Shown here piece after piece: positions 13,067-51,860 of a stretch of 64,000 bases of DNA. The stretch's first letter is position 1; every line of letters begins with the position of its first letter. Both the position numbers and the translations under genes were made by a program. The stretch spans positions 27,187 to 91,186 of the IMG/VR virus record IMGVR_UViG_3300022751_000017; one strand, given 5' to 3'. Under the pieces are notes generated by a model that had not been told where the DNA came from, made no database searches, and worked only from the letters and a program-made list of their open reading frames with translations. This DNA comes from a virus.

Positions 13067-13083
13067 ACCTGCAAAGTGCAGGT
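13067..13083 (-). promoter_or_regulatory. Operator/hairpin palindrome, site 1 (chaperonin operon)
   Basis: Read toward the gene: ACCTGCACTTTGCAGGT, 7-bp arms around CTT. It is preceded by TATCTTTA and ends 17 nt before the GroES-like start. The same unit lies 17 nt before the minus-strand gene at 24693, and a third copy is at 13587. It could be a repressor operator or a 5'-UTR hairpin. Confidence 0.7.
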
Positions 13084-13109
13084 AAAGATATTGTAATTAA
13101 TCAGAAGTG

Positions 13110-25889: not shown

Positions 25890-27464
25890 ATGATAACCTA
25901 CGCTTTAACTCCCCAGCATGCTCCACGTCAGATATTTTCCGTTGGTGAGGCACAGACTCAGTTCCAGCCGTTCTCAGATGTCTACAGGCAACTGTGGGAT
26001 TTCGTGGAAGATGGCGGATTAGATGCCTTCGGGATAAACAAGGAAGACCTGGCGCGTTGGCGTAAAAACTTCCGTGAGGGAGTGGTGAACATTGGTGGTA
26101 AGCCATCAGAGATAGACTTCTTCCGTATGATGATGGGTGGCACTCCTAAGGAGACAAACGCCTCTTCAATCAGCGTAGAGTATAACAGTGCGTTGGACTA
26201 CAACATATACGCAGAGAATGATGCTACCGGCACCAACGGCGCTGTCACCAATGCATACTTTGGAGACCTGATAAACGGCACTTACAATGGTAACTACGTG
26301 GTGTTCGACATTGCGGTTGATACTTATGCAGATAACGGTACCAAGTCCAATATAAATGTTGGCGACCAGATATTCAACTACATAGATGGTAAGTATCTGG
26401 TGGTGATCAAGAAGGATGTAACCACTCCTTTTGCGCACCATATCTACTGCGCACCTTTCGATGGTAACTATACGCCTCAGATATATGCGAAGCAGCCAAT
26501 GCAGCCCAACCATATACAGCTGGTGTCTGGTTATAGCGATGCTACTACATCTGCGCCGCACAGTGAGTGGGAAACCCTCGGTTACATCAAGGAGTATAAC
26601 CCATTCTCTCTTCGTACAGACTGGGAAACACCGCGTAACCTGGAGAAGCCATACAAGGATATTCTGCAGTTCCCGATCATATTCGATATGCATACCGGTG
26701 CAGAGATGGACTCATGGGACTTCAAAGCGATGGCTGATGGCCGCGAGCGTATGATCATGGGTGAGAACATGATGTTCTTCACAGGTGAGCAGCTGACCAA
26801 TGTAAGCCTGATATCAAATACATATACAAACCAGTATAACGGTTTTGAAGGGCTTCTGACCACCATCTGGTATGGCGGCGGCAATATACAGCAGTATGAC
26901 AATAGCTATGGTTACGACCTGGATGTTGACTTCATGCAGATGGTATTCTCAAACGATGCACTGAAGAAATCTCAGGAGTTCCTGTTCCTGGCCGCAAAGC
27001 GCTGGATATACATGATGGAGCGCCGTAGCCAGGATATGTTTAAGAATAACTCAGGGGCATGCACTTTTGATACGTTTGAGCGTATGGGTGATGAGCGTGC
27101 CGATCTGAAGCGCCTGGGCATCAACTCATACGAGTGGAGAGGTTCAACAATGCATATCAAGGAAGTCGGTGCATGGTCTGACAGCCGCTGGGTAGGTAAT
27201 GCTTATTTCCCCGCTATGGCTATAGTTCTGCCAGGCGATGGTCTTACAGACAGCAAGGGCAATAAAGTATCTCCGGTTGAGTACTGGATACCAGCAGGCC
27301 GTAGAGTGTCTGGAACATGGCAGGAAGAGTGGAGAGACCACATGAAGCTTTCAGATAAGGCTGATAAGTTCTCAGGTACCATTACTCATGACATTATGAT
27401 GAGCGTGAACGGAGTGGAAAATATGTGGGCAGTGATGCCGAAATACATTGTGAGCAATTCTTAA
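25890..27464 (+). CDS. Probable major capsid protein, 524 aa
   Basis: It follows the scaffold-like gene and is itself followed by a strong hairpin spanning its stop codon, as expected for the most highly expressed head gene. The sequence is mixed alpha/beta and rich in aromatic residues (WDFKAMADGRERMIMGENMM, GINSYEWRGSTMHIKEVGAW). Length suits a HK97-fold capsid subunit. Codons are noticeably smoother, with few A/T-rich choices, which fits high expression. The fold is inferred from context only. Confidence 0.65.
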   Translation: MITYALTPQHAPRQIFSVGEAQTQFQPFSDVYRQLWDFVEDGGLDAFGINKEDLARWRKNFREGVVNIGGKPSEIDFFRMMMGGTPKETNASSISVEYNSALDYNIYAENDATGTNGAVTNAYFGDLINGTYNGNYVVFDIAVDTYADNGTKSNINVGDQIFNYIDGKYLVVIKKDVTTPFAHHIYCAPFDGNYTPQIYAKQPMQPNHIQLVSGYSDATTSAPHSEWETLGYIKEYNPFSLRTDWETPRNLEKPYKDILQFPIIFDMHTGAEMDSWDFKAMADGRERMIMGENMMFFTGEQLTNVSLISNTYTNQYNGFEGLLTTIWYGGGNIQQYDNSYGYDLDVDFMQMVFSNDALKKSQEFLFLAAKRWIYMMERRSQDMFKNNSGACTFDTFERMGDERADLKRLGINSYEWRGSTMHIKEVGAWSDSRWVGNAYFPAMAIVLPGDGLTDSKGNKVSPVEYWIPAGRRVSGTWQEEWRDHMKLSDKADKFSGTITHDIMMSVNGVENMWAVMPKYIVSNS

Positions 27465-29508: not shown

Positions 29509-29541
29509 TAATATACAAGCTAATAAAAATAATTAACCCAA

Positions 29542-29572
29542 TAAAGGGATACCTTAAACGGGTATCCCTTTA
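29542..29572 (+). terminator. Intrinsic terminator
   Basis: A 12-bp stem TAAAGGGATACC/GGTATCCCTTTA around a 7-nt loop, between two virion genes. Confidence 0.75.
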
Positions 29573-29584
29573 ATAATTTATACA

Positions 29585-46641: not shown

Positions 46642-46670
46642 CAAGGAGTTATCCAGTGCCCCTGAAAATA

Positions 46671-46701
46671 AGTAAAGCCACTCGGATTGAGTGGCTTTAC
46701 T
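46671..46701 (+). terminator. Terminator of the late block
   Basis: A perfect 13-bp stem AGTAAAGCCACTC/GAGTGGCTTTACT with a 5-nt loop, 29 nt after the last ejection gene. Confidence 0.8.
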
Positions 46702-46807
46702 GCGTAAGATAGTTTTACCCATCCGATATGTAAAAAGTGCCTTTGGCTGTCACAAACATACTTCGAATTTATTTACCGTGCAAGTGAAATACTATTTTAT
46801 TTATCAC

Positions 46808-46815
46808 TATATTTG
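46808..46815 (+). promoter_or_regulatory. Promoter -7 element for the leader RNA
   Basis: TATATTTG just before the structured region at 46821. No clear TTG -33 element. It should transcribe the RNA and the gene at 47067. Confidence 0.55.
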
Positions 46816-46820
46816 TAACT

Positions 46821-47048
46821 GTCATTTCCCATAGGGGAAAGGACTTGGCGGCCCACATTGCCGTAATTGTGGGATATCTCGGCAACCATGCGCAATATCA
46901 GTAAGCGTTGAAGGAGTATAGAAGTCGTATTGTTTTAGTGCGATTTCGGAAATTAGTTGACCACTCAAATGAGTGGAACAAATCTTAAAATGCATACCCA
47001 CGATGGTATGCATTTTAAGATTAGATTTGTGCCGCCGCAATGGTGCGG
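46821..47048 (+). ncRNA. Structured leader or RNA with pseudoknot and 18-bp hairpin
   Basis: Seen in order: TTTCCC-ATAG-GGGAAA (46825-46840); an H-type pseudoknot in which CCCACA/TGTGGG (46852-46873) has a loop TTGCCG that pairs with CGGCAA (46880-46885); CCACTC/GAGTGG (46961-46976); a perfect 18-bp hairpin (46981-47022, loop CACGAT); and CCGC/GCGG (47035-47048). No protein gene is supported. It may be an independent RNA, a riboswitch or a leader of the 92-aa gene 18 nt downstream. The long hairpin lacks a T-run, so it is not a standard terminator. No family recognised. Confidence 0.55.
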
Positions 47049-47066
47049 TAAAAAAACTTACACAAG

Positions 47067-47345
47067 ATGAATGCAACCGACAAAAAGATTTTCGAGTACG
47101 CCTCTAAGATAAATGAAGCTATTGCTGAATTGTTCAGCGAGGACAGCGATATGCATATTAAAGATTTAGGTGAGGATGATAACCTGACGCTATTTATTCA
47201 CGCAATGGCTACAGTTGCCCCATGTAGTATAGCCAACAAAATTACAGGTCAGGAAATGAATCAATTGGAATTCAACAATGATGCTAATACGTTGATATTT
47301 CAGTACGCAAAACAAGCGGATAAAGAAGATACAGACAATCCGTAG
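47067..47345 (+). CDS. Hypothetical protein, 92 aa
   Basis: A small acidic helical protein (NATDKKIFEYASKINEAIAE) with a Cys mid-chain (TVAPCSIANKITG) and an acidic end. It starts 18 nt after the structured leader, whose last hairpin may regulate it. A terminator follows at 47373. Not recognised. Confidence 0.6.
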   Translation: MNATDKKIFEYASKINEAIAELFSEDSDMHIKDLGEDDNLTLFIHAMATVAPCSIANKITGQEMNQLEFNNDANTLIFQYAKQADKEDTDNP

Positions 47346-47372
47346 TTTCCGTAAGTTTCTACGGACAACAGG

Positions 47373-47401
47373 CCGACACTATCATGGTGTCGGTTTTTTT
47401 A
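47373..47401 (+). terminator. Intrinsic terminator
   Basis: CCGACAC/GTGTCGG with a 7-nt loop and seven T. The next promoter element starts only 2 nt later. Confidence 0.8.
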
Positions 47402-47402
47402 T

Positions 47403-47411
47403 TATCTTTAC
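47403..47411 (+). promoter_or_regulatory. Promoter -7 element (TATCTTTAC)
   Basis: TATCTTTAC, seen again at 48411 and, as TAnCTTTACC, at operator sites 1 and 3. A start about 6-8 nt downstream puts the first hairpin of the kissing-loop leader at the 5' end of the RNA. Confidence 0.55.
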
Positions 47412-47419
47412 AATTCAAA

Positions 47420-47495
47420 TAGCGCTGGAACCGCTAATCAACTTACTGCCTTACATGATATTGCTATGTTCCAGATAGCAATGGATTGTAGGGCA
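47420..47495 (+). ncRNA. 5' leader with two hairpins of perfectly complementary loops
   Basis: Hairpin 1 is TAGCG/CGCTA with the 7-nt loop CTGGAAC (47425-47431). Hairpin 2 has an outer stem TGCCTTACA/TGTAGGGCA and inner stem ATTGCTAT/ATAGCAAT with the 7-nt loop GTTCCAG (47468-47474). The two loops are exactly complementary over all 7 nt, so a kissing loop or pseudoknot is likely. It lies between a promoter and the PP-loop gene start at 47510. Possible roles are a riboswitch, an RNA thermometer, a dimerisation element, or a binding site for a protein. Confidence 0.55.
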
Positions 47496-47509
47496 TTGTT
47501 AATTTTATT

Positions 47510-48403
47510 ATGAAAATGTCACCATTAGTTATCAGTTTTTCAGGTGGTCGCACAAGCGGCATGATGACGAAATTGTTACTCGATAAATACAGAGGGAAAC
47601 GGGAGATAGTCGTAATATTCTCAAATACCGGCAAGGAGTACGAGGAAACACTGCAATTTGTACATAACTGCGACACGTATTTCGGTTTTAATACCGTATG
47701 GATTGAGAGTGTACAGAACCACGGCCAGCGTAAAAGCGCAGGATATAGGGTTGTTTCATTTGAAACCGCTGACCGAACTGGCGCACCATTCGAGGACATG
47801 ATTAAAAAACATGGCATACCCAATAAGCCTTTCCCGCATTGTAGCCGGGAGCTTAAAAATAAGCCCACTCTCAATTACATAAAAGAAGTGCTTAAATGGG
47901 ATTGGTACGAAATAGCGTTAGGTATGCGTATTGACGAACCCGCAAGGCTCACTGTTAAAGAAAATGTAGGTTACCCAATGGCTTACGAATGGCCGACAAC
48001 TAAGCTAATGGTAAATAAATGGTGGCTTAAACAACCATTTGATTTAGATATGTCTCGCTTTACAGGCGGTACACCATTCCCTGAATACATGGGTAACTGC
48101 GATAGATGCTGGAAGAAATCAAAGAGAAAATTACTAACACTTGTAAAGGAAGGGGCGCATCGGAATGATTGGTGGAATGACATGGAAATAAAATACGGGC
48201 ATTTCGTGCCTGAAGGGCAGAAAGAAAAAAGGATAGTTCCGATAACATTCTTTCGAGAGAATGAAAGCATGCAAGACCTTATAGAAGATTGTAAGTTCCC
48301 TTTTGAAAAAGCATCAGATACATTCACACTTCAACAGCTTATGTTTTCGGATCCGGAATTAGATTTTACTGATGGATGCGAAGAAAGTTGCGAAGCATTC
48401 TGA
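47510..48403 (+). CDS. PP-loop ATP-pyrophosphatase (PAPS-reductase/DndC-like), 297 aa
   Basis: The PP-loop SFSGGRTSG at residues 9-17 activates a substrate with ATP, as in PAPS reductases and relatives. FSNTGKEYEET is the second typical segment. NCDRCWKKSKRK around residue 197 and CEESCEAF at the end give Cys pairs for an Fe-S or zinc site. Phage members of this family are usually of unknown substrate; sulfur modification of DNA or RNA and other nucleotidyl chemistry are possibilities. The family is clear but the reaction is not. The leader carries a kissing-loop structure. Confidence 0.8.
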   Translation: MKMSPLVISFSGGRTSGMMTKLLLDKYRGKREIVVIFSNTGKEYEETLQFVHNCDTYFGFNTVWIESVQNHGQRKSAGYRVVSFETADRTGAPFEDMIKKHGIPNKPFPHCSRELKNKPTLNYIKEVLKWDWYEIALGMRIDEPARLTVKENVGYPMAYEWPTTKLMVNKWWLKQPFDLDMSRFTGGTPFPEYMGNCDRCWKKSKRKLLTLVKEGAHRNDWWNDMEIKYGHFVPEGQKEKRIVPITFFRENESMQDLIEDCKFPFEKASDTFTLQQLMFSDPELDFTDGCEESCEAF

Positions 48404-48410
48404 TATTTCA

Positions 48411-48419
48411 TATCTTTAC
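48411..48419 (+). promoter_or_regulatory. Promoter -7 element (TATCTTTAC)
   Basis: TATCTTTAC directly after the PP-loop gene stop, leading into the short Pro-rich membrane gene and the terminase genes. It is followed by CACATGC, and the TTACCAC heptamer appears by overlap. Confidence 0.5.
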
Positions 48420-48648: not shown

Positions 48649-49344
48649 ATGACAACATCAATACTTAATGATGCGCTCCTGCTTCGTGCTGAGCCTGTAG
48701 ATAAGCTAAGAGAATATTTTAGCTCTATAAACGTCACTATATTCGATGATATCTTAAGCCGTGCACCTGTAGAGGGCAAGAACACAATCAGAACCCAGGA
48801 GCCTAAGCAGATAGTATTGTTTATCCTCACAGCCTACAGCGAGGACAGCCCATTGGTAATACTGCGTCAGGATGCAAAGGAAGAGAAAGAGGGTATCTGC
48901 GAGTACCTGGGCATTCCGGATTATATGCGCAGTGACCTGATCAACCTGAAAGACCCTATGGTTAGGAGTGCGGTTACCCAATACCTGGAGCAATTTGCGG
49001 GTTTTGAGTTCAAAAATCTGATGTTCATGAAGATCCAGCTCAGTGACTTTGAGAGTGACATCACCAACCGGCGCTACCGGTCAGAGAGCGTAGTAGAGGC
49101 CGGGAAAGACGGAGAAGGCAATTCTATAAAGACAATTGAGTATTACTACGACATCAAGGAGCATGGCAAGGCTGTCTCAGAGACCCTGCGCCTATCCAAG
49201 AGCATCAATGCATTGGAAAAGGAGATAAAGGCCAGCCAGGGCACCTACAAGGCCATAGATGAAATAAGGGAGTGGAAGACACATTCTAATCATAAGGGTG
49301 GCAAGACAGTGAAGCGCGGCGGGGCAGAAAACTATATACGCTAA
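48649..49344 (+). CDS. Putative terminase small subunit, 231 aa
   Basis: A helical, charged protein starting MTTSILNDALLLRAEPVDKL, ending in a basic stretch (SNHKGGKTVKRGGAENYIR) suited to DNA contact. Its last base is the first base of the large-terminase start codon, so translation is coupled. The place directly before terL is where terminase small subunits normally lie. No HTH family was recognised. Confidence 0.6.
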   Translation: MTTSILNDALLLRAEPVDKLREYFSSINVTIFDDILSRAPVEGKNTIRTQEPKQIVLFILTAYSEDSPLVILRQDAKEEKEGICEYLGIPDYMRSDLINLKDPMVRSAVTQYLEQFAGFEFKNLMFMKIQLSDFESDITNRRYRSESVVEAGKDGEGNSIKTIEYYYDIKEHGKAVSETLRLSKSINALEKEIKASQGTYKAIDEIREWKTHSNHKGGKTVKRGGAENYIR

Positions 49345-51635: not shown

Positions 51636-51636
51636 T

Positions 51637-51671
51637 CAAACGGGGTGCAGTTGATAGCTGCACCCCGTTTG
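51637..51671. terminator. Terminator between terL and the minus-strand operon
   Basis: A perfect 14-bp stem CAAACGGGGTGCAG/CTGCACCCCGTTTG with a 7-nt loop. It ends the plus-strand terminase transcript and the minus-strand operon, which finishes at 51677. Confidence 0.85.
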
Positions 51672-51676
51672 TGTTG

Positions 51677-51829
51677 TTATTTACCTCTTGACATTATAAG
51701 TCCTACGTTCATTCCAAGGAACCCTATATTCGTAAATATCAAAACAGGGCTATGAATCCACGCAGCAATTATTGCCACTAAAATATGAAAAACAACCCCG
51801 AATTTATTCCAATCCCATTTCATAATCAT
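51677..51829 (-). CDS. Small two-span membrane protein, 50 aa
   Basis: A complete 50-codon frame, MIMKWDWNKFGVVFHILVAI then IAAWIHSPVLIF and TNIGFLGMNVGLIMSRGK, that fills the gap between dUTPase and the terminator. Two hydrophobic segments (about 11-24 and 28-46) are separated by a short turn. It is the last gene of the minus-strand operon. It could be a micro-holin or a membrane toxin. Confidence 0.55.
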   Translation of the reverse strand: MIMKWDWNKFGVVFHILVAIIAAWIHSPVLIFTNIGFLGMNVGLIMSRGK

Positions 51830-51860
51830 TCCGCCGGTTACGATCCGAAACGTTTAGTTA

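Follow-up and report, generated by a model that had tools for sequence, protein, structure and literature searches.

The leader described here lies in a viral sequence record of 91,186 bases (IMG/VR record IMGVR_UViG_3300022751_000017), and the window analysed is a stretch of 64,000 nucleotides covering positions 27,187 to 91,186 of that record. It precedes a gene for a PAPS-reductase-like PP-loop protein, whose product matches phrog_424 (E 1e-39) and PF01507 (PAPS_reduct, E 1.5e-6) and is 39.7% identical to a protein of Klebsiella phage SAKp11. The terminase genes follow about 1.1 kb beyond the leader: TerL, at 49344, is recognised by phrog_6681, and a 231-aa ORF at 48649, just ahead of TerL, would by its position occupy the place of TerS. 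At about 27-31%, the terminase is a distant relative of those of Flavobacterium elemo phages and Cellulophaga phi38:1, and the virus is named here a phage of the Bacteroidota type.

Features of the leader and its surroundings (positions are those of the window)
Feature	Position	Strand	Description
Intrinsic terminator of upstream gene	47370..47396	+	12 pairs, then a T run
Putative promoter -7 box	47403..47410	+	TATCTTTA; Bacteroidota consensus TAnnTTTG; between terminator and hairpins
Hairpin 1	47420..47436	+	TAGCG-CTGGAAC-CGCTA; 5-bp stem, 7-nt loop CTGGAAC (47425-47431)
Linker	47437..47446	+	10 nt, between hairpins 1 and 2
Hairpin 2	47447..47495	+	9 bp, 3x3 internal loop, 9 bp, 7-nt loop GTTCCAG (47468-47474); TGCCTTACA-TGA-TATTGCTAT-GTTCCAG-ATAGCAATG-GAT-TGTAGGGCA
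AU-rich ribosome landing site	47496..47509	+	TTGTTAATTTTATT; A at -3
PAPS-reductase-like PP-loop protein gene	47510..48403	+	297 aa; follows the leader

The first-pass annotation had set the hairpins right after a promoter, and a -7 box is indeed present there. Its final base is A in place of the consensus G, which makes the promoter likely rather than certain, and no -33 element is visible ahead of the leader. In flavobacteria, the -7 box TAnnTTTG spans -12 to -5 (PMC9723704; spacing also PMC6847099), and this spacing predicts a transcription start at about 47415, so that hairpin 1 would sit at the 5' end of the RNA. An A at -3, as found in the landing site, is favourable in Bacteroidetes, where translation is tuned by structure close to the start codon (PMC6847099). 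The window contains four copies of TATCTTTAC, where 0.9 would be expected, and three of them lie just upstream of genes; the copies near genes include 13082-13090 (-) and 48411-48419 (+), and the word may be a promoter word of this phage.

The two successive hairpins were first described as having entire 7-nt loops that are exact complements, and both the sequence and the minimum free energy fold agree with this description. The MFE and centroid folds of 47413-47512 consist of precisely hairpins 1 and 2 at -28.3 kcal/mol, with a z of -3.56, and none of 200 shuffles reaches that energy. Hairpin 1 by itself is weak at -3.4 kcal/mol, and hairpin 2 is strong at -23.3 kcal/mol, with an internal loop (UGA/GAU) in which tandem G.A pairs are possible. 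In the ensemble, the nucleotides of both loops are mostly unpaired (probability 0.75-1.0), and a duplex between the two loops is worth -8.9 kcal/mol. An alternative nested helix built from the two loop sequences and replacing the hairpins is worse, at -20.1. Counted from the predicted transcription start, a single 5' leader is predicted to carry both hairpins and their complementary loops. A three-way junction closed by ACAAU/AUUGU in a 141-nt fold was rejected, since its 5' arm lies upstream of that start.

The + strand also folds better than its opposite (-28.3 vs -25.1), and two pairs of hairpin 2 are G.U on the + strand and A.C on the other. This strand bias suits an RNA transcribed from the + strand more than a site in DNA. 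Among 17 intergenic gaps tested in the phage, the one at 47346-47509 (+, terminator included) has the lowest folding z, -7.8.

Other gaps of the phage are structured as well. The gap at 46642-47066 (425 nt), before a small ORF at 47067-47345, is strongly structured on the + strand (z -6.3). Within it lie a -7 box at 46808-46815, TATATTTG, and a hairpin of 18 bp near 46977-47025. It also gives a weak full-length match to the Prevotella-2 RNA, at 27.2 bits against a gathering threshold of 72.1, which leaves two readings, a small RNA or another structured leader. Strongly folding gaps are likewise found at 29509-29584 (z about -5.0, +) and 51636-51860 (z about -5.0, -).

How often such a loop match arises by chance depends on how strictly it is defined. 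Scanned for adjacent hairpins whose 7-nt loops are fully complementary, the window gives this pair only, together with its mirror image on the opposite strand, and none appears in 60 shuffled versions. The 91-kb record holds 21 adjacent hairpin pairs with 7-nt loops, from which 0.0013 full matches are expected; with the two hairpins taken as given, their loops would be complementary at all seven positions by chance 1 time in 16384. The strength of the case rests on the full 7/7 match, because relaxing the criterion to 6 bp, with loops of 6-9, raises the expectation to 0.3 per 91 kb. Further copies of CTGGAAC and GTTCCAG in the record are scattered single 7-mers.

Real DNA was used as a calibration, and 2.66 Mb of other loci scanned for full 7/7 pairs yielded three more. 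In two of them one hairpin is repeated as an inverted copy, and the third lies in a coding-looking, GC-rich stretch, which puts comparable cases in real sequence at roughly one per 0.9-2.7 Mb. Because this rate is low but non-zero, a scan of many windows will meet a chance pair now and then.

A structured 5' leader that tunes the stability or translation of the PP-loop message is the most likely function of this sequence, with the kiss as a likely but unproven switch that would act within it. More specifically, and at somewhat below even confidence, we favour the view that the phage PP-loop mRNA begins with a short structured 5' leader whose complementary loops would kiss and thereby tune expression. 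If transcription starts at about 47415, hairpin 1 would cap the 5' end; 14 nt separate hairpin 2 from the start codon. The two loops could then pair as a 7-bp kiss early in transcription, when hairpin 2 has formed its upper stem alone; a later kiss would require the base of hairpin 2 to be opened or bent, or would form between two transcripts. The kiss would tether the 5' end to hairpin 2, and this tether may protect the message and govern the access of ribosomes to the landing site.

Counted for the kissing leader are the 7/7 loop complement, the fold below its shuffles, the rank as most structured gap tested, the preceding terminator and -7 box, the gene immediately after, and the A at -3. 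The predicted open loops, the energy of the loop duplex and the + strand bias likewise favour it. The control of the PP-loop gene suggested in the first-pass annotation agrees in position and folding with a cis leader (terminator, -7 box, distance to the ATG). The analysis shows the sequence, the fold, the position and the identity of the gene; use of the promoter, kissing and an effect on expression are inferred. Counted against the kissing leader is the outcome of the searches described below: no leader-bearing relative was found, hence no covariation, and PP-loop relatives are without such a leader. The lack of relatives in which to compare the loops does not in itself speak against the kiss. 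The low stability of hairpin 1 alone and a strained geometry in cis also weigh against the leader.

This geometry was considered in a crude A-form model with both hairpins stacked through the kiss. With the hairpins intact, a kiss in cis leaves their ends about 90 Å apart, compared with about 60-69 Å of the 10-nt linker. In the same crude model, the kiss closes with a bend of 60-90 degrees or with 3-5 pairs opened at the base of hairpin 2, and it closes easily when the upper stem of hairpin 2 alone has formed. A kiss in cis would thus have to displace the lower stem of hairpin 2 or arise at an early stage of transcription. That the kiss is functional is plausible but unproven. Hairpin 1 also resembles the anticodon arm of tRNA-Ser GGA in its 5-bp stem and its loop CU-GGA-AC, and the loop of hairpin 2 displays a UCC codon; both are probably coincidence. 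A more speculative form of the new leader type considered below has hairpin 1 mimicking this arm and hairpin 2 offering the codon, by which the leader might detect tRNA-Ser(GGA). A tRNA-Ser of the phage as trans partner was rejected, as the record holds tRNA-Phe only.

A rival explanation, possible and only slightly less likely than the favoured one, is that hairpin 2 alone matters, as a stabiliser of the mRNA or a weak attenuator by the start codon, and that hairpin 1 and the loop match are coincidental, noticed because the first reading was on the lookout for oddities. Nearly all of the folding energy resides in hairpin 2, five of the eight bases that follow it are T, and real DNA does give neighbouring hairpins with complementary loops, at both the full and the looser rates given above. 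The odds of the 7/7 match speak against such a coincidence, as does its location in the most strongly structured leader tested.

It is unlikely that the loops kiss mainly between two RNAs, either as a dimer held by two 7-bp kisses, with hairpin 1 pairing reciprocally to hairpin 2, or with a trans partner. The ends that lie far apart in cis would be neighbours in side-by-side antiparallel stacks, where the 10-nt linker would join them, so a two-way dimer would be free of the strain of the cis kiss. Kissing dimers of two different loops are known from retroviral SL1-SL2, whose complementary loops join molecules, and from phi29 pRNA (PMC7357161). A dimer requires a high concentration of transcript, however, and no trans RNA with these loops was found in the record. 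The dimerisation proposed earlier is thus sterically easier than a kiss in cis, to the extent that the crude model is a guide. Also unlikely is the idea of a new type of phage leader that would switch the downstream gene through competition between a full 7-bp kiss, in cis or in a two-way dimer, and the lower stem of hairpin 2.

The nested palindromes at the leader, about 1.1 kb ahead of the terminase genes (TerL and the putative TerS ORF), could instead be a site in DNA, where a protein would bind the nested inverted repeats, for instance close to a signal for packaging or replication. This is improbable, as the G.U-type pairs favour an RNA from the + strand, a break in composition is absent there, and a coding gene intervenes before the terminase genes. 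A riboswitch whose kissing-loop aptamer would bind a sulfur compound or a nucleotide is the least credible of all: the guanidine-II aptamer offers a two-hairpin precedent (PMC7357161) and the downstream gene is PAPS-reductase-like, but the leader has neither an Rfam match nor an obvious unpaired core, an ACAAU/AUUGU closing helix would require 47410-47414, upstream of the predicted start, and the leader is missing from relatives of the enzyme gene.

Searches for relatives of the leader gave no match with its two-hairpin arrangement among the matches listed. In Rfam 15, the leader has no match at the gathering threshold, and an E-value search gave matches at chance level only. The exact leader pattern was not found in IMG/VR, nor was a copy of the leader in IMG/VR, GTDB genomes, or phage and plasmid collections. 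The core and loop of hairpin 2 gave two matches, neither with a hairpin 1 partner and one in apparent coding sequence, and a pattern that kept the upper stem of hairpin 2 but let its loop vary, aimed at covariation of the loops, gave three, all unrelated. The core of hairpin 1 gave at least 119 matches; among the matches listed, five have the partner 7-mer nearby, and these five appear coding and were not counted as relatives. Both loops with the gap between them also gave at least 119 matches, and none among the matches listed has stems of three or more pairs on both hairpins.

The gap upstream of the PP-loop gene is shorter than 30 nt in 113 of 159 homologues, and in the remaining homologues the upstream regions are unrelated and the two-hairpin arrangement occurs in none. 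Comparison of the leader with 16 genomes bearing PP-loop relatives, and with plasmids, gave chance matches. Relatives of the terminase (about 31% identity at most) have no comparable leader pair in their loci. In several viral contigs (L225, L237, L238 and L239), an inverted repeat, TTGTAGCTACA...TGTAGCTACAA, surrounds the -7 box of PP-loop genes and looks like an operator common to those phages.

If the kiss works, the leader would represent a highly compact loop-loop device of natural origin, some 75 nt long, in a Bacteroidota-type phage, and a clean test case for pairing in cis versus dimer formation. In Bacteroidota, RNA regulation is little known and messages are without Shine-Dalgarno sites. 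If the kiss fails, the locus is a reminder of how frequently striking loop complements occur by chance.

The likeness to plasmid copy control and riboswitches proposed in the first-pass annotation is one of form, with no Rfam match behind it. In the ColE1 RNA I/RNA II system, hairpins with fully complementary 7-nt loops belong to sense and antisense RNAs transcribed from opposite strands. The leader loops are also 7 nt long and fully complementary, but both lie in one RNA, and no opposed promoter pair, antisense partner or ColE1-type origin was seen at the leader. Purine riboswitches likewise have two interacting 7-nt loops; the leader differs in its unequal stems and in having neither a three-way junction nor an Rfam match. 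The guanidine-II (mini-ykkC) riboswitch consists of two successive linked hairpins whose loops, of ACGR sequence, form 2 bp with each other and bind guanidine (PMC7357161). The leader shares its two linker-joined hairpins with mutually pairing loops, but those loops (CTGGAAC/GTTCCAG) have 7 possible bp and no ACGR.

By form, the closest systems are the guanidine-II riboswitch, phi29 pRNA and retroviral SL1-SL2, and by loop size ColE1. The phi29 pRNA, from a phage, has two hairpins with unlike but complementary loops that join molecules through a 4-bp kiss, and it has a closing helix (PMC7357161). The pRNA is a free RNA, whereas the leader runs directly into a gene; there is no sign of a free RNA at the leader, such as a terminator between hairpin 2 and the PP-loop gene, and the ACAAU/AUUGU helix seen in the 141-nt fold has its 5' side upstream of the predicted start. 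No bacterial-phage precedent for an intramolecular complementary-loop leader was found in the literature. The leader is best filed, outside the Rfam families, as a new, single and unproven example of a kissing-loop leader.
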